A stretch of 64,000 nucleotides of DNA from Pycnococcus provasolii (Eukaryota; Chlorophyta; Pseudoscourfieldiophyceae; Pseudoscourfieldiales; Pycnococcaceae). The DNA lies in contig OW568864.1 in assembly GCA_938743325.2 (NCBI GenBank), forward strand, positions 124,001 to 188,000, given 5' to 3'. The notes below the pieces were generated by a model that saw only the letters and a program-made list of their open reading frames with translations, was not told the origin of the DNA and made no database searches. The position numbers and the translations under genes were made by a program. Shown here in pieces: positions 15,336 to 22,809 of the stretch. Position 1 is the stretch's first letter, and every line of letters starts with the position of its first letter.

Positions 15336-16007
15336 TCAGAAGGGACAAGGGACACGTGGCAACCCTCTTCTCTTCTCTTCTCTTCTGCTCTTCGCTTTGA
15401 CACATGCGTTAAGCCGAGAATGGTGTAACCCTGTTTTGCTATCGAATTTGATTGTCTTTGTCGAATTCGGCGTCGGTAATGGCAACCTGCAGCACTCAGA
15501 TTTAGGCGAGTCGATGATGGTGTTGTTGCCCGACTCATTGTTATTGCTTGCGCAAATGTTCATTTCCATGGCATGTTCGGAAATATCTGTCGTCTGCACG
15601 TGCACGTCCGGCTGCCCGAAAGCTTTGCCGCAGCCGTCTCTTGCGAGGAGCTCATCGAGTGCGCTGCTGCTTCCGTGCACCTTAGATTCGCACTCATTCC
15701 TTTGATGATTGCCCCTTTTCCTGCTGCGGAAATGATCCACGTCCACCCGCGCCGATGAAGGCTGGGTGGCGCTGGCATCAGTGACAGACGACGAGAACTC
15801 TGGCTCCAAAGTCATATCCCCGTCATTGTCGCCGTCGCCTATTTTGTTGTCGTCGTCGTCGTTGTCGTGGTCAAAGGAAGAGTAGGTGGAGAACTCGCTC
15901 GAACGCGATTCGGAGGATAACCGCGGCAATTGCGGCACACCTTTCACGAGCTCGTTGGTGGTTGAGTGCCTTCTTCGCCTATGGCGAAACAGACGGCCAT
16001 CGTCCAT
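15336..16007 (-). CDS. Hypothetical low-complexity protein
   Basis: 223 codons from an ATG with no recognisable domain. It has a basic N-terminus (RHRRRRH), an Asp/Asn-rich stretch, Ser-rich segments and a basic RSRKRGNHQRN patch. The composition fits a disordered nuclear protein, but also chance. It lies in the repeat-rich island and faces the orphan zinc ribbon on the other strand. Confidence 0.35.
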   Translation of the reverse strand: MDDGRLFRHRRRRHSTTNELVKGVPQLPRLSSESRSSEFSTYSSFDHDNDDDDNKIGDGDNDGDMTLEPEFSSSVTDASATQPSSARVDVDHFRSRKRGNHQRNECESKVHGSSSALDELLARDGCGKAFGQPDVHVQTTDISEHAMEMNICASNNNESGNNTIIDSPKSECCRLPLPTPNSTKTIKFDSKTGLHHSRLNACVKAKSRREEKRRGLPRVPCPF

Positions 16008-16056
16008 TTGCCTAAAAAAAACGGCACGACCGTTCCTTTTTTTTGCCGCCGGGAGC

Positions 16057-16188
16057 GGCCATCGCTGTCCGCGCTGCGGTTCTTTTGGCGTCTCCGTACT
16101 TGAGGGCGTGAGCGTTCGCCGCGCGGATGAGGGAGAGGACCGCGTGATGTCCTGCGCCGTGTGTGGGATGCAGCGTGTTATGGGTTAA
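16057..16188 (+). pseudogene. Orphan TFIIS/RPA12-type zinc-ribbon exon
   Basis: The frame reads CPRCG, 13 residues, RRADEG, six residues, then CAVCG and a stop. This spacing matches the C-terminal zinc ribbon of TFIIS, RPB9, RPA12 and RPC11, including the acidic Asp-Glu pair of the RSADE hairpin that stimulates RNA cleavage by the polymerase. There is no in-frame ATG upstream, and a pyrimidine tract ending GGGAG just before the ribbon could be a splice acceptor. It is therefore either the last exon of a spliced gene whose other exons I cannot find or a stranded gene end. The aromatic residue usual after the last CG is missing. Confidence 0.45.
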
Positions 16189-16218
16189 ATTCCGGGAAAC
16201 GCGCGCGTGTTACACACA

Positions 16219-17709
16219 CTAACTGCGTTCGCGTTTCGTGCTCGGTCCCGCCGCGTCTGCGCCATCCGCCGACGGACCGACCTCGTGCGCGCGCTTTTTG
16301 TTTTCGCGCTCCTCCATCATCGCGCGCTCCGTGCGTCGAACCACGGACTTGAGGTACGCCGCGAACGCGGGGTCCTCGCACGCGAGCGGGCGCTCCGCCG
16401 TCTCCGCGTCCGCGTCGAAGCAGAAGTACTCGATCGCCTCAAGGTCGCCCGACCGGTCCGTCGCGGCGGACGCGCCAATGTCGCGGAGGCGGCGGAGCAG
16501 GACGCGCTCGCGCTCGCGCTTGTCCAGCTCCTGCGGAACCTCGTCGATCGTAAAATCGTTCGGGTTATAACGAAGCCACGTAATCTTCACGCCATCCACG
16601 CCGCCGAACCCGAGGCTTCCGAGCGCGAGCGCCTCGTGCACGCGCCCGATGCGCTTGACGTCGCACGCAACCCCACCAAAGTAAAATCTGTGTTGATGCT
16701 CGTCGATTTCCATGAAGATGAGGACGTTCGGCGAACCGCCGATGGGACAAATCACGAAATCGATCCGGGCGTACGCCGCGGTACTCCCATCCTGGAGGCA
16801 CCGGAACTCGATCCGGAACTCGCGGCGAAAATGACCAGGGACGGGTGCCGAATCGTCGTTCGCGGCGTCCATCACGTACCCGTCGCTGAGCAGCGCCTTC
16901 GTCCAGCGCTCTTCCTCCTTCTTCTTCTTCTGAATGCCTTCGGGCGTGTGATAACCTTTGACGTGCTTCTTGAGCTCGACGGTCGTCACGAAGCGCATGC
17001 CGCACGCCGGCTCGGTACACGCATGGGGGCGCTCGTTCGTATGTCGGAACATGGCGTGCGTTTTTAGATTTAGCTTTCGCGTCGCCGCGTACGTACATCC
17101 TGCGAACTGACATTTGAACGGTTTTTCGCCCGTGTGCGTTCGCTCGTGCTTTATCAGATTTGCCTTGTCCGCCGTTTCATACGTGCATCCTGGGAACGAG
17201 CACTTGAACGGTTTTTCGCCCGTGTGCGCTCGCTCGTGCCTTATCAGATTTGCCTTTTGCGTCGCCGCGTACGTACATCCTGGGAACGAGCATTTAAAAG
17301 GTTTTTCGCCCGTGTGCGTTTGTTCGTGCATTATCAGATTTGCCTTTTTCGTCGCCGCGTACGTGCATCCTGGGAACTGACATTTGAACGGCTTTTCGCC
17401 CGTGTGTGTTCGCTCGTGCTCTTTCAGAGTTCCCTTTTGCGTCGCCGCGTACGTACATCCTGGGAATTGACATTTGAACGGCTTTTCGCCCGTGTGCGTT
17501 TGTTCGTGCACTTTCAGATTTACCTTGTGCGTCGCCGCGTACGTGCATCCTGGGAATTGACATTTGAACGGCTTTTCGCCCGTGTGCGTTCGTTCGTGCA
17601 TTATCAGATTTGCCTTTTTCGTCGCCGCGTACGTACAATTCGGGAACGAGCACTTGAACAGTTGTTTCGATGTCGTCGTCTTCCTCTTCGATGTCGTCGT
17701 CGTCACGTT

Positions 17710-17743
<34 letters not shown>

Positions 17744-17808
17744 TCGTCGCCGTCGTGTGCGACACAAGCATCCTCGTCGTCGTCGCCGTCGTCATCTAGA
17801 GACGTCAT
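16219..17808 (-). CDS. C2H2 zinc-finger array fused to a nuclease-like domain
   Basis: 529 residues from the first ATG (17808); the frame opens further upstream only into a transposon end. An Asp-rich tract (about 4-33) is followed by eight C2H2 fingers: seven nearly identical (C-x4-C-x12-H, TGEKP linkers; residues 51-261) and a degenerate eighth (262-291). A basic linker leads to a domain at about 325-480 with RIDF (Asp350), MEIDEHQH (Glu367, Asp369, His371/His373) and a WLRYNPNDF strand. I know this D...ExDExQH...RYNPD pattern from uncharacterised restriction-endonuclease-fold domains of protists and giant viruses. Together they form a natural zinc-finger nuclease layout; cleavage is inferred. 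It could instead be a regulator with a dead nuclease fold. The C-terminus is basic. Confidence 0.8.
16935..17660 (-). repeat. 90-bp coding repeats of the zinc-finger array
   Basis: Seven near-identical 90-bp units plus one diverged unit, each encoding one finger and linker. Base differences fall mostly in the recognition-helix codons, while the flanking sequence is nearly invariant. This suggests unit duplication or conversion with diversification at the contact positions. Confidence 0.85.
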
Positions 17809-17851
17809 GACAACAATCTGCCAGAGAATGAAGAAAAAAGGGAGAAGAAAG

Positions 17852-17861
17852 GGCGAAAAAG
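17852..17861 (+). repeat. Target-site duplication, left copy
   Basis: GGCGAAAAAG lies directly outside the left MULE end and is repeated exactly at 20312-20321 outside the right end. Nine to ten base pairs is the usual Mutator duplication length. Confidence 0.9.
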
Positions 17862-17957
17862 GAGAAAAAGACAAAGTATAGGTGTTTTTTCGGAATTTTG
17901 GACAAAGTATAGGTGTTAGGGTTACTGCTAGGGTTATGGTTAGGGTTTCGTTTTACT
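17862..17957 (+). repeat. MULE left terminal inverted repeat (outer block)
   Basis: 96 bp identical to the reverse complement of 20216-20311. It contains two copies of ACAAAGTATAGGTGT and several TTAGGG-like hexamers. Confidence 0.93.
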
Positions 17958-18034
17958 TGGATCTTAATCCACCTCACCGACGCGTCGTCAAACCAGTACT
18001 GTACCCTTCGTTCCTTCCCTTCCCTACCCATCAG

Positions 18035-20035
18035 CTAGCGCAACTGCGAGTTCGTCTGCGTCTGCGTCTGCGTCATCTCAACTGAGCTCTTGTGGCGTTT
18101 TTTGAGGCTCTTCCTTCCTTTTTTCTTCTTTCGTGGTGGTGCCACGATGGGTTCCATATTCGGCGGCGCAGTCATGAGGTGCAGCTCGATCGGTAGCGTC
18201 GGTAGGCTCACTACCGTCGCGTTCAACGCGGCAGACACGCACGAACGCTTGTGGAAATCGGCGACGAAGTTCTCCACGAAAGTGGAATACGTGTAGCCTT
18301 TGTCATGCGCAGCTTTCCACGAGTGCGGACAACCACATGCATGCTCCAAGGTGAGCTTGCAAGCACACGAGATGCCTTCAGGCAAGAACTTCACGATGTA
18401 CGGAGCCGAACCTGCGAATACCGTCGCGATGTTCTGCGCCGTCCACTCCACGCGCATGGGTGCTGCAGATTGGATATGCCCGGCAAGCATGGCGTTTGCA
18501 CGGTCCGTCAAGAACAAGGAACTGTTCGCGATGCGCTCGCGAAGCAATGCCAGCCGCGTGTGCGCGCGACGCAAGCAACTGTCAAAGAAGAACGTCGGCG
18601 GGAGAAACCTTGCACTGGTTCTTGTTTTCGACGCCGCCGCATTCTCGCTCTCCGCAAATTGAGAAGTGAGTCTACCGTGCAACCCGAAGCCAGCCTCGTG
18701 CGCGCCCATCACGGTCCACTTCGCAGGGTCAAGATTCTTGAGGTACGCGTGTGCGGTGTTGTTCTCTTCCTGAAGTGTGGCCATGTTCACATCAAAATTG
18801 AACTTAGTCCAAGATTTCGCAACAGTCCAGAATAGCGCGCCACGGTGGCCTAAGACGAAGTCCTTCGTCGATCCGCACGCTTTGTAAACGTTCTGTAACA
18901 CGTGCCATAGGCACATGAAGTGGTACGCCGTGATCGTCGTCAATGCCGTCAGCAACCCTTTGTCACGATCGCTTATCACAACTTTATTCTCCTTCAAGAA
19001 GACATCCAAACCTGCTTCGCGAAGAACTTGTACAAACCAAGTCCACGATGCTTCCGACTCGCTTTTCACGCATGCCCACGCCACAAGCAACGTCGTCCCC
19101 TCACTTGTCAATAACGTAAACGTGAGGTATATCCCGTCGTACCAACGATGACGACTGTGTGTGCCATCCATCGCCGATATAGGGAGGCAAGCTTTCTCAA
19201 GCGTCGCTACAGGAAGCGCGAACGCCGCGGCGTTGAACTGCTTTTCTCCAGAGGGAAGCGTGACCGTGTTGAACTTGAAGATCGCGCCGGGATTCGCTGC
19301 CACCGCTGCTTCGCCCCACAGCTTCATCACCGTGAAGGATTCGTTGTATTTGATGTCGAGCATGTCCAGCACCAAATTGCGCGCTCGGTTCAGCATCCTC
19401 GTCGACGGCGGTACCGCGTGCGGGTACTTTTGCCTCGCAAGCGTGCCAATGTCTTCCGCGCTAATGCCCCTGTTCGAGGCGACGTTCTCGTAGACGACGT
19501 CTGCGATTTGTTCGGCACTCAAGGTGAGCTGCCCGCCGCAGTTGATGTGTGGTTGCACCTTGGCGATCCGCCACTTTCCTGTGTTTGTATTCACGCCATC
19601 CTTCTCCTTCGTAGCACCACGCTCTTGCACGCGGCGTACGACTGCGCTCCCGGTACAGGCATTTGCTTTCAGAACTTGCTTTTTGGACGCCGCGCCTGTC
19701 ATGCCTTTTCGCGCTTCCGCCGTCGCCGAGAGGTCAACAGCATCCGCGCAAATGAAGTACACGGCGTCGGAGTTTGAGCAGGACGTTTTTTGTATGAGCT
19801 TCTTGCCGGTTGCGCACGAGTGTGCCTTGACAGCATCAATGGCCTCTTGCTTGGAAGAGTACACACAGCCGACGCACAACGAATGGAGTTTGGATGTCGG
19901 AGCAAGTTGCGGCAGTCGACCCCCGGCCCCAGCCCCTGCCTCTTCGTGCTCATGTTGTTCATCAGAGGACTCGTCGTCGTCACTTCCTGACGACCAGTTC
20001 CAGTTCAGGAGCTCGACGCTTTCGTTCATGTCCAT
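18035..20035 (-). CDS. MULE transposase
   Basis: 666 residues from the first ATG (20035); upstream codons lie within the right terminal repeat. An acidic N-terminus is followed by a Cys/His-bearing region (about 54-170) like the N-terminal DNA-binding part of MULE/FAR1 proteins. The DDE core is visible: Asp290 in SAMDGTH, Asp356 in VISDRDKG with the downstream C...H motif CLWHV, and Glu462 in QFAESEN. A SWIM zinc finger (C557-x-C559...C569-x-H571) follows, then a lysine-rich nuclear-localisation-like tail (PPRKKKKGRK). All expected parts are present in one frame, so the enzyme may be functional. Confidence 0.92.
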   Translation of the reverse strand: MDMNESVELLNWNWSSGSDDDESSDEQHEHEEAGAGAGGRLPQLAPTSKLHSLCVGCVYSSKQEAIDAVKAHSCATGKKLIQKTSCSNSDAVYFICADAVDLSATAEARKGMTGAASKKQVLKANACTGSAVVRRVQERGATKEKDGVNTNTGKWRIAKVQPHINCGGQLTLSAEQIADVVYENVASNRGISAEDIGTLARQKYPHAVPPSTRMLNRARNLVLDMLDIKYNESFTVMKLWGEAAVAANPGAIFKFNTVTLPSGEKQFNAAAFALPVATLEKACLPISAMDGTHSRHRWYDGIYLTFTLLTSEGTTLLVAWACVKSESEASWTWFVQVLREAGLDVFLKENKVVISDRDKGLLTALTTITAYHFMCLWHVLQNVYKACGSTKDFVLGHRGALFWTVAKSWTKFNFDVNMATLQEENNTAHAYLKNLDPAKWTVMGAHEAGFGLHGRLTSQFAESENAAASKTRTSARFLPPTFFFDSCLRRAHTRLALLRERIANSSLFLTDRANAMLAGHIQSAAPMRVEWTAQNIATVFAGSAPYIVKFLPEGISCACKLTLEHACGCPHSWKAAHDKGYTYSTFVENFVADFHKRSCVSAALNATVVSLPTLPIELHLMTAPPNMEPIVAPPRKKKKGRKSLKKRHKSSVEMTQTQTQTNSQLR

Positions 20036-20215
20036 GACATCACACGCAGACGCGGGGAATGGAAGGGAAGGGAGGGGAGGGGGGGCGGGAAGGGGCGAGA
20101 AAGGGTGGGAAGGAACGAAGGGTACAGTACTGGTCGACGACGCGTCGGTGAGGTGACTGGCCGACTGGGAACCTACAGATGCATGGCGGCGCCTTGCTCC
20201 CCATGGTATTCGGCC

Positions 20216-20311
20216 AGTAAAACGAAACCCTAACCATAACCCTAGCAGTAACCCTAACACCTATACTTTGTCCAAAATTCCGAAAAAACACCTATACTTT
20301 GTCTTTTTCTC
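20216..20311 (-). repeat. MULE right terminal inverted repeat (outer block)
   Basis: Exact inverted copy of 17862-17957, including the TTAGGG-like hexamers, here read as CCCTAA. Confidence 0.93.
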
Positions 20312-20321
20312 GGCGAAAAAG
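20312..20321 (+). repeat. Target-site duplication, right copy
   Basis: GGCGAAAAAG, identical to 17852-17861. Sequence beyond it is probably the original upstream region of the zinc-finger/nuclease gene. Confidence 0.9.
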
Positions 20322-20370
20322 GGAGAACAAAGGGCGCTGCCTGCACTGCAGGAGGCCACCTGGTGGACTA

Positions 20371-20426
20371 GGAGAGAGGGAGAGAGGGAGAGAGGGAGAG
20401 AGGGAGAGAGGAGAAAGGGAGAGAGG
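20371..20426 (+). repeat. GAGAGAGG microsatellite
   Basis: Purine-only tandem repeat about 60 bp right of the MULE. If the MULE is subtracted, it falls roughly 110 bp upstream of the zinc-finger gene's ATG. Confidence 0.85.
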
Positions 20427-20479
20427 AGCCTACGCCACTCTGACACTTTTGCTTCAATCCTGTGGGGGTTATCTGAAGA

Positions 20480-20610
20480 TAACCCCCAATCTCAAACCCC
20501 TAATCCCCTTCAAAATGGTCCAGCCCGACCAAAATGGTCGGTGAGTCTAACCCCCAATCGCAAACCCCTAACCCCGTTCAAAATGGTCCAGCCCGACCAA
20601 AATGGTCGGT
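20480..20610 (+). repeat. Two direct 63-bp repeats
   Basis: Copies at 20480-20542 and 20548-20610, differing at a few bases. Each holds AACCCCCAATC, CAAACCCCTAA and two AAAATGGTC motifs that form a short inverted repeat with CCGACC. Related motifs recur at 22590-22710. Confidence 0.85.
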
Positions 20611-20649
20611 AGAGTATTTTAGAGTATTCGGTAGACCCTCTAGGGTCTA

Positions 20650-21690
20650 TGGTTACCGGGACGAAAATCGCTGGTCGGGCCTACAGGTCGGCCGACCAAA
20701 TAAGTCGGAGGGACCCTATACAAGCACACAAGTCTGCCTTCGCCTACAGCGAGGCAGATATTAGCGGATACACCGGCGTCGACGGGCCATGTACTATCGA
20801 CGTGCACACGGATAAGCCGACGATACAGCGACCCCGGATGGGTGTTTTCACTTTGATCCTGATTTAGAAACTCATATATACACCGACTTTAGCACACGCG
20901 GCATTGCTGCAGTGCTCGCGCAAGTTGGTCCAGACAAAAGGGAGCGGCTCGTGGCATGCATATCTCGATCGCTCAGTGAGTCTGAGTCCCGCTACCCATC
21001 CTTCTACGGCGAATTGCTCGCAGTTACATGGGCGCTCAGGCATTTTCACTGCTACATCTGGGGTGCCCCTATCAAGCTCATCACTGATCATAGTGGCATA
21101 ATGGATGCATTTGCAGGTACGGGTAGTATTGTGTCAACGTTGGTTGGACGAGGTCTGAAGGTGGTCAGCAATGATGCAAATCCGGAGCATGGAGCTCAAT
21201 TCGCTGAGGATGCGGGTCAGGTATGGTTCTGGAGAAAGTTGGTTCAGAGAGTGGGATCTAAGCCAGGAGTGGTTACCAGCCCTTGGTTTGAATTGTTGGA
21301 TTTGGTCATTCCCCTTATGGTAAGGGAGCGGCCTGAGGTGGTTTGCATTCACGTCCCTTATGGGTATGTTACCGCCGCGCCTGAGGCACGACACAAGTAT
21401 TTGAGGGGTCTGGCAGAAGATGGAAGGTTGTTCTTACTTGCTGGGCTGGAGCGGTATGCTACGCTGCGTTCGTGTGCGTGGTTGTGTGTGTTCAAGGATT
21501 GGCAAACGCGTGACATGATGGTGCGCGTCGACATGGAGTCTGAGGTAGGTTGGTTTAGGTTATCGCACCGGCTGCAACCTATTGTCGCTGATCATGCAGC
21601 AGGTGTTGCAGGAGCTGGAGCTGGTGCAGAAGCTGGAGGTGGTGCAGAAGTTGGAGGTGGTACAGGAGTCGCAGCAGAGCCTACTGCATG
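20650..21690 (+). mobile_element. Fossil retroelement fragment (Ty3/gypsy- or DIRS-like pol with methyltransferase-like domain)
   Basis: A broken, partial pol region. Parts recognisable are the start of a reverse transcriptase (TDKP..Q..R), an RNase H of the Ty3/gypsy kind (ACISRSLS, ELLAVTWALRHF, LITDHSG), and in the same frame a methyltransferase-like domain (FAGTGSIV, later SPWFELLD), ending in a Gly/Ala/Val-rich repeat tail. RNase H followed by a methyltransferase is the order of DIRS-type elements, but the RNase H reads as gypsy-like, so the family is open. No whole element is present; it is at least moderately old. Confidence 0.65.
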
Positions 21691-21705
21691 AACAGCGAGG
21701 AGGGG

Positions 21706-22079
21706 ATTGCAAATAACTGCAGCCTCTGAGGTCTGTGTTGCCTGACAGCTGTCGGGGTTTGGTATGGTGTCGGGGTTTAAGGGTGTGGGGGAGTTTGGAG
21801 AGGTGGGTTAGGGTTAGGGTTACAGGAGGTGATGGGTCCCCACGGACGAACCTGATCCAAATGGATCTAAGGACAGATGGTTTTCCCCGGCCCTTTGGCA
21901 CTTGCCTCACCTTCCCTGGTTGTCCCCTTCCCGGGTGTCACGGTGGTGGTCTTTTCACTACGGTTTTTCTTGTTTACGTCGTCTTAAGACACGTAGTTAA
22001 CAAGTTAGTAACAAGGTTGAATTCTAAGGTTTATTTATTGCAAATAACTGCAGCCTCTGAGGTCTGTGTTGCCTGACAG
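21706..22079 (+). repeat. 43-bp direct repeats 331 bp apart
   Basis: 21706-21748 and 22037-22079 are identical for 43 bp. They lie just downstream of the retroelement fragment and may be remains of its terminal repeats (LTR or split direct repeat). Three TTAGGG-like units lie between them near 21808-21824. Confidence 0.7.
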
Positions 22080-22589
22080 ACACGACGGCGACGGCATCTC
22101 GGACAGCCAGACAACGACGATCAGTGATGGAGTACCTACTAGTTTGGTCGGCGCTACAAGTCCAGGTGGAAAATGGTCGTGAGAAATGGTCCATGCTCCA
22201 TCTGCGTTGCCCCGCCTGAGTCTAAAAGGGGTCCCCAAACACAGTCCAGAACATGGTCGGCGCTACAAGTCGGGAGAGAGCATACTAAAAGGTAGTATTT
22301 TGCCATCTATACAGGGATCCCAGGGTCTACCGAACCCACGCGACCGCAAGGGCGCCAACCTATTACTTAGTAATACTTAGTAATACTCAAAATACTCAAT
22401 ACTCTAGGTATAGTATAAGTATTGAGTATAAGTACTGGGTAGCCCTGCTGTGATCTCGGGGAGGGAGGGGGAAGTCTTCCTAAGGGGGGTCGGTCCCCCG
22501 AACCCTAAATTTTGCTCACTTTCCGGTGGGTGGGGGGGAACGCGTGATTGCCGTTGATTCTTTTTTTACATTGCTAAAGCACCAGCGCC
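22080..22589. other. Repeat-rich intergenic DNA
   Basis: No gene seen. The 16-mer GTCGGCGCTACAAGTC occurs twice (about 22148 and 22257), AAATGGTC motifs recur, and a run of ACTTAGTAATACT/TACTCAAT variants lies around 22365-22440. Confidence 0.5.
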
Positions 22590-22710
22590 GGGTTATACTT
22601 AGGGTTAAAGATTGGGGGTTTGTGATTGGGGGTTTGTGATTGGGGGTTCCAAGGTTAGGGTTTTTTGAGTAGGGTTAGGGTTATACTTAGGGTTAAAGAT
22701 TGGGGGTTTG
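22590..22710 (+). repeat. Direct repeat with GATTGGGGGTTTGT minisatellite
   Basis: A 33-bp block (22590-22622) is repeated exactly at 22678-22710. Between them the 14-mer GATTGGGGGTTTGT is tandemly repeated, followed by TTAGGG-like units. The G-rich strand could form quadruplexes (inference). Confidence 0.8.
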
Positions 22711-22809
22711 TACGAAAAGGTATATAAAGTACTATGTAGTTAAGTGAAAAGAATGAAAAATAGAATACAAGAAACAACGCAAGTGTATGTGATCTGGAGA
22801 TCGTCGTCA

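Follow-up and report, generated by a model that had tools for sequence, protein, structure and literature searches.

In the green alga Pycnococcus provasolii, a gene was found that joins an array of C2H2 zinc fingers, over a linker of constant length, to a conserved C-terminal domain which looks like a remote Vsr-like PD-(D/E)xK nuclease, and that belongs to a family in which the base-contacting residues of the fingers are replaced on an almost unchanged C-terminal domain. The gene occupies positions 16219 to 17808, on the minus strand, of a 64,000-nucleotide stretch of genomic DNA, which is called the window below. The explanation that we consider probable is a natural sequence-addressed endonuclease, composed of fingers, a fixed linker and a Vsr-like cutter, which is re-addressed in the course of a genetic conflict. 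The tandem C2H2 fingers would bind a long DNA site and the 11-residue linker behind the junction finger would hold the Vsr-like PD-(D/E)xK domain at a set distance from it, from where this domain would cut beside the bound site by means of D350, E367 and D369, as metal ligands, together with Q372 and H373. Purifying constraint acts on the nuclease half, and the finger half is repeatedly re-addressed as contact residues are replaced and modules of 30 residues, one finger each, are gained, lost or exchanged. Such an enzyme would most likely cut the DNA of invading viruses or mobile elements and, as the product of a viral gene, that of rivals or of the host.

Zinc-finger nucleases are known as a product of engineering, in which a C2H2 array is coupled to the FokI cleavage domain. 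The algal family resembles them in having a modular C2H2 array as address and a nuclease domain, here putative, located C-terminal to the fingers, but it is natural, it possesses a Vsr/DUF559-like domain instead of FokI, and it reaches up to 11 fingers with a fixed linker length. Among titles and opening parts of abstracts in the open-licence literature, neither an experimental study nor a description of a natural family of C2H2 and Vsr-like nuclease proteins was found, which is weak evidence of absence; as far as seen, the parts are known and their combination and re-addressing are apparently undescribed. If the family is indeed large and natural, evolution would have arrived at the design of the zinc-finger nucleases by way of another, compact nuclease domain and a linker of fixed length. 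This would supply many ready-made pairs of chassis and address, as well as a testable mechanism for the conflict between viruses and algae in the ocean.

Gene frame, finger array and homologues

One uninterrupted frame of 529 codons fills 16219-17808, from an ATG at 17808 to a TAG at 16219-16221, and a chance open reading frame was rejected as its explanation. The complete frame with a finger array that had been claimed in the original prediction was confirmed by this open frame, by Pfam, with matches far above chance to zf-C2H2 (7.1e-18, seven stretches) and zf-H2C2_2 (2.5e-39), and by the intact paralogues L002 and L003 described below. The encoded protein consists of eight C2H2 fingers, starting at residues 53, 83, 113, 143, 173, 203, 233 and 264, followed by a short basic linker and a C-terminal domain of about 200 residues. 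Fingers 1 to 7 (residues 53-256; 17041-17652, on the minus strand like all parts of the gene) have a near-identical framework that varies at helix positions -1, 2, 3 and 6, in line with the seven near-identical fingers noted before. The eighth (residues 264-287; 16948-17019), which forms the junction with the nuclease-like domain, had been described as degenerate; it is divergent but not broken, the spacing C-x4-C-x12-H-x4-H being intact. Its four ligands are retained across homologues, with C264 present in 167/168, C269 in 168/171, H282 in 173/174 and H287 in 173/175 sequences. Behind it lies the basic linker of 11 residues (288-298; 16915-16947), and the protein ends with a basic tail, KKRAHEV...TKRERS by eye (16222-16308), a possible nuclear signal.

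Fingers and C-terminal domain co-occur throughout the family. At least one finger is found upstream of the domain in 163 of 180 proteins, and at least two are present in 126 of the 128 proteins that begin with M and have more than 100 residues upstream. The distance from the final His of the last finger to the first conserved Glu amounts to 11 residues in all 172 alignable homologues (172 of 180 possess both anchor residues required for this count; the window copy was excluded), and the number of fingers rises to a family maximum of 11. A cutter positioned by its fingers would need just this, a constant spacing next to an array that varies. Homologues had also been expected in prasinophytes and large viruses, and they were found in one prasinophyte and in two coccolithoviruses; among the best 120 of 227 matches, which constitute the homologue listing, at least two coccolithoviruses, EhV-84 and EhV-99B1, have the gene (members P0060 and P0047).

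One relative, P0001, is 97% identical over the domain and is listed at NCBI as 'general transcription factor IIIA [Pycnococcus provasolii]', the single named entry among four matches. The TFIIIA_zf-C2H2 profile reaches the window protein at E 0.004 with 17.6 bits (cut-off 27), and an ordinary TFIIIA is considered an improbable identity of the gene. Some algal genes that are counted as C2H2 transcription factors may be nucleases, the copy labeled TFIIIA being the named case in this alga. In Bathycoccus, an expansion of the C2H2 proteins, treated there as a transcription factor family, was discussed in 2024 in relation to cold adaptation (PMC11409870).

The C-terminal domain and its candidate active site

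Within the nuclease-like domain (residues 290-500; 16309-16941), the stretches RIDF, MEIDEHQH and WLRYNPNDF are all present as originally described. Pfam gave no match C-terminal to the fingers of the window copy at E up to 1, nor to its nuclease part at E up to 10. A profile of the domain from 118 sequences was aligned by hhalign with DUF559/YcjD at 77.3% (P 2e-5) and a 32-sequence profile at 83.2%, against at most 2.4% for one reversed and eight shuffled profiles and at most 2.8% for 40 further shuffles, 49 controls in all. These values support the predicted PD-(D/E)xK-like domain in the form of a remote Vsr-like match that is better than its controls. DUF559 itself leads to solved structures, namely 3hrl (1.4e-36), 3r3p (1.6e-5), a protein of a mobile intron which we take to be I-Bth0305I, and weakly PvuRts1I (0.1) and Vsr (0.16), and by hhalign it scores 88% with PvuRts1I. 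Direct alignment of the family profile yields 6.2% with PvuRts1I (40 shuffles at most 3.1%) and 0.6% with E. coli Vsr.

Searches with 32 nuclease-only relatives gave matches to NERD for 7 of them (best 5.5e-4), to YraN for 5 (best 1.9e-3) and to a phage homing endonuclease family for 2 (best 4e-4), and MTES_1575, DUF2726 and UPF0102 were each matched by single members. These library matches are suggestive only, because unrelated families such as BrxA (0.0013) and SDR (0.0022) reach a similar strength with the domain; PADLOC likewise returned weak matches only, BrxA at 0.0013 being the best. In sequence searches of the PDB, the window domain gave a single meaningless match (E 4.1), the nuclease-only profile gave nothing up to E 10, and a profile that included the fingers gave 344 matches, of which the 60 listed are all zinc-finger entries. 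NERD and DUF2726 profiles had no match in the alga's own genome, where one of the two scans was silent in control genomes too and is uninformative.

Of 180 homologues, 177 retain the whole candidate catalytic set of D350, E367, D369, Q372 and H373, the departures being P0027, P0178 and P0180, and the Asp/Glu cluster, whose loss across homologues had been named as an argument against a nuclease, thus survives. Residue by residue, the candidate metal ligand D350 of RIDF (codon at 16759-16761) is found in 178/179, and in the motif E367-I-D-E-H-Q-H373 (16690-16710) E367, D369 and E370 are each found in 179/180, Q372 in 178/180 and H373 in 180/180. In the paralogue L003, the Q at 372 is replaced by E, and the activity of this copy may differ accordingly. 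An initial motif count, made on 119 of 121 proteins, was partly circular because a motif and length filter had chosen the rows, with removal of P0027 (G at 372) and P0085 (an apparently frame-broken tail); the numbers given here are from a recount of 180 of 181 proteins with no motif filter, P0181 being left out as it has no domain. Further downstream, C382-D-x-K-R386 (16651-16665) forms a predicted helix after the motif, whose D and R are invariant in the DUF559 alignment too, and R413-Y-N-P416 (16561-16572) is nearly invariant.

By eye, DUF559/YcjD and other Vsr-like proteins have the same elements in the same order, namely an F-R-x-Q/E-H strand, a DF strand, an E-[VI]-D-x-x-Q-H strand, a D..R helix and an [LV]-R-[FY]-x-N strand. 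DUF559 differs by a G at the position of E370, and the algal family by insertions, by additional conserved C-terminal parts (Y461, F/Y464, D465) and by the finger array. The hhalign alignment to DUF559 places a gap over the RIDF strand and sets the DF of DUF559 on an earlier F-x-C strand; because of this gap, the equivalence of D350 with the Asp of DUF559 rests on reading by eye. In the alignment with PvuRts1I, D350 falls on D57, and E367-D-E-x-x-H on E68-D-E-x-x-H. According to a study of PvuRts1I (PMC4157451), D57, E68, D70, E71 and H74 are among its absolutely conserved residues, several mutants of conserved residues are inactive, with the exception of D70A that keeps some activity, and the nuclease domain resembles Vsr.

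PvuRts1I and AbaSI share with the algal family the pattern of a D and E-[IV]-D-E-x-x-H and the coupling of a Vsr-like nuclease domain to a separate DNA-reading domain. They differ in reading 5-hydroxymethylcytosine with an SRA-like C-terminal domain, and their direct profile score is low; membership of this group was rejected, as the algal fingers precede the domain and Pfam finds nothing behind them in the window copy. A second likeness is to the EDxHD homing endonuclease I-Bth0305I, presumably the structure 3r3p that is reached by the DUF559 profile, in which a catalytic domain is tethered to an extended, multi-part DNA-binding region (PMC3943268). The EDxHD enzymes differ as genes of phage introns with NUMOD modules, and no intron was found in the window with Rfam.

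Turnover of the predicted specificity and copies of the gene

As judged from the aligned sequences, specificity turns over faster than the nuclease domain, which is the main new point of this analysis. Pairs of homologues were compared by their contact sets, i.e. helix positions -1, 2, 3 and 6 of each finger, with at least three fingers on either side. In 51 pairs, the identity of the nuclease domains is 90% or more. Of these, 39 have no contact set in common and 45 share under half of them; the remaining six share half or more, and one of these shares all. Contact positions have a higher entropy than the framework in every one of the 15 clusters with three or more members, in an analysis that used 175 of the 180 domains and compared positions within the family; such variability is partly expected in any C2H2 array. 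Within the alga, 17 finger units of the form C-x4-C/H-x3-H (6 of the 8 in the window, 4 of L002, 4 of L003 and 3 of L004) gave N 0.81 and S 0.00 for contact codons against N 0.18 and S 0.21 for other codons, with a permutation p of 0.0015 that is optimistic because the units are related by duplication and are not independent. Over the nuclease domain, comparison of the three intact copies gave pN 0.005-0.011 and pS 0.011-0.043. In PRDM9 and the KRAB zinc-finger proteins, base-contacting residues likewise change fast next to a stable effector domain, the effector being a methyltransferase or a repressor module and not a nuclease.

The genome search covered the assembly of 32.3 Mb in 46 contigs. 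Besides the window copy, it holds two intact copies, L002 on contig C35 and L003 on C16. Identity to the nuclease domain of the window is 98.6% for L002 and 97.1% for L003. L004 and L005 are finger pieces, L006 and a short match on contig C39 comprise the leader only, and relics on C12, C4 (at 884567) and C13 have 34-54% identity over short stretches, those on C12 and C4 being closest, as read by eye, to the P0105 group.

The intact copies are parts of a duplicated unit with flanks of its own. In the window, the 3' flank lies at 15981-16218 (minus strand), with 92 bp in common with C35, 173 bp with C16 and the last 170 bp (16150-15981) with contig C33; the 5' flank, displaced from the gene by insertions, lies at 22448-22589 (minus strand), with 115 bp in common with C16, 84 bp with C35 and 79 bp with C33. 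Over the whole genome, both flanks occur together at four places, the three intact copies and C33, and the other flank matches listed are of 26-33 bp at query edges. The place on C33 (L048 4082-4971) is an end-only remnant, in which 648 bp of mostly repetitive DNA, instead of a gene, separate the 79-bp 5' flank from the 170-bp 3' flank. The 5' flank is parted from the gene by other DNA both in the window and at C35. Beyond the flanks, the four places have no long DNA in common, except that 27 bp of the end of the gene neighboring the C35 copy are present at the window copy, because of which the C35 locus is the probable ancestor of the latter. By eye, neither terminal inverted repeats nor target duplications were recognized at the ends of the unit. 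In the C35 copy (L011 4918-7014), the shared block starts and ends at CCCTCATGA, and DNA starting with CAGGG, hAT-like by eye, comes after the 5' flank. In the window, the DNA on the left side of the displaced 5' flank (22590-22750) is rich in CCCTAA-like words, and arrays on C36 (1246-1770) and C7 contain a 31-bp piece of this DNA.

The N-terminus of the window copy has another origin than the rest of the gene. Residues 1-51, an acidic leader with a KRK stretch (17656-17808), are missing in L002 and L003, both of which open the array with an extra CPHC finger instead. The DNA of this leader is about 99% identical to a hAT-like element on contig C44, and together with the DNA upstream it matches that element at 99-100%. 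In the C44 element, candidate inverted ends of 17 bp are present, together with a fragment that resembles the dimerisation domain of hAT transposases (E 4e-4; 20.5 bits, cut-off 21.4). By these matches, the window copy is a chimera in which a leader of transposon origin stands in place of the start and first CPHC finger of L002 and L003. At L015 4322-5529 lies a short hAT-like element with candidate 17-bp inverted ends and the acidic leader in common with the zinc-finger gene.

In the window, one part of the hAT-like element lies at 20312-20628 (minus strand), its continuation at 17660-17870 supplies the N-terminus of the gene, and its outer end at 22361-22447 abuts the displaced 5' flank at 22447/22448. 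It is interrupted twice, by a MULE transposon at 17862-20311 and by other DNA at about 20629-22360, the latter having a frame at 20912-21691 with a retroelement RNase H (Pfam RT_RNaseH 6.6e-16) that runs into other sequence. The MULE (minus strand) possesses perfect terminal inverted repeats of 96 bp, a 741-aa transposase frame at 18035-20260 and a 10-bp target-site duplication, GGCGAAAAAG, at 17852-17861 on the side of the gene and at 20312-20321 on the other; it starts 53 bp upstream of the ATG and looks like a recent insertion. Transport of the gene as cargo was rejected for both transposons, the MULE being wholly upstream without enclosing the gene, and the hAT-like element having a 5' part that adjoins the gene and no 3' part on its other side.

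Competing explanations and distribution of the family

Because the address changes fast on a constant cutter, we read the family as one engaged in genetic conflict, and a setting for this is provided by the members in coccolithoviruses (among the best 120 of 227 matches) and, in the alga's own genome, by the relics of other subfamilies. The spread of copies would also fit a selfish, homing-type gene or unit, whose nuclease makes or exploits breaks, which repair then fills with a copy of the unit, and whose fingers change at the new sites. A 5' flank of 79-115 bp and a 3' flank of 92-238 bp accompany the gene as a unit, and both occur at four places; relics of other subfamilies coexist with it as they would in a cycle of invasion and decay, phage homing-endonuclease families are weakly matched and viruses carry the gene. 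Plain segmental duplication would yield four copies too, however, the ends of the unit have no recognized terminal inverted repeats or target duplications (by eye), and Rfam at gathering thresholds found no self-splicing intron in the window. Moreover, homing enzymes usually retain their site specificity among close relatives, against which stand the 39 of 51 close pairs that have no contact set in common. As site retention is the tendency of homing enzymes, we favor defence or interference and hold a selfish origin to be rather unlikely, although the decaying relics and the four locations of the unit, including the one that has no gene, place a selfish life cycle close behind defence.

Far smaller is the probability of the two explanations that dispense with cleavage. 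Many C2H2 proteins are transcription factors, and the NCBI label of P0001 would suit an ordinary member of that class in which a nuclease-derived domain has become inactive. The retention of the candidate catalytic residues in 177/180 would be unexpected for a dead enzyme, and the instability of specificity between close relatives is unlike a conserved regulator, which makes this very improbable. We assign an equally low chance to a domain that is no nuclease at all, but another alpha/beta fold, possibly with a metal or zinc site formed by C337, C382 and H373, to which the profile match would be due to chance. The nuclease assignment depends on remote profiles, the direct scores with Vsr and PvuRts1I are poor and the nuclease-only profile retrieved nothing from the PDB; against this, the DUF559 match lies far above 49 randomized controls, several libraries converge, be it weakly, on PD-(D/E)xK families, and the motif agrees with that of PvuRts1I. 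A wider proposal can be made tentatively, to which we give somewhat less than even chances: algae and their large DNA viruses might use a natural, protein-programmed nuclease, with interchangeable finger modules on a near-constant chassis, whose address changes fast enough to follow changing targets in the way of CRISPR spacers.

With regard to distribution, three pattern scans of the viral contigs of IMG/VR gave 36, 15 and 83 matches, of which 0 were confirmed; IMG/VR probably holds no viruses of the coccolithovirus type, because the patterns with 15 and 83 matches would catch coccolithovirus proteins. A tblastn search of phage records with part of P0011 gave no match. Contigs of prokaryote genomes gave 0 matches in a first scan and one in a second, on a contig filed as an Opitutaceae MAG (62-70% G+C), of which six other frames were checked and had no Pfam match; we infer that this is a mis-binned contig of a eukaryote or virus.

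Some single members deviate in their surroundings or build. A gene that adjoins one homologue (L047 6248-7105) has a WNIGHRI stretch which, by eye, recalls HNH-type nucleases, and Pfam found nothing in it up to E 0.1. In P0178, a stretch listed with Pfam PF03420, presumably a prohead protease, precedes the C-terminal portion of the nuclease-like domain, and the contig is probably chimeric. P0176 has another cysteine-rich N-terminus in place of the C2H2 array, which suggests that the nuclease chassis may accept other readers.
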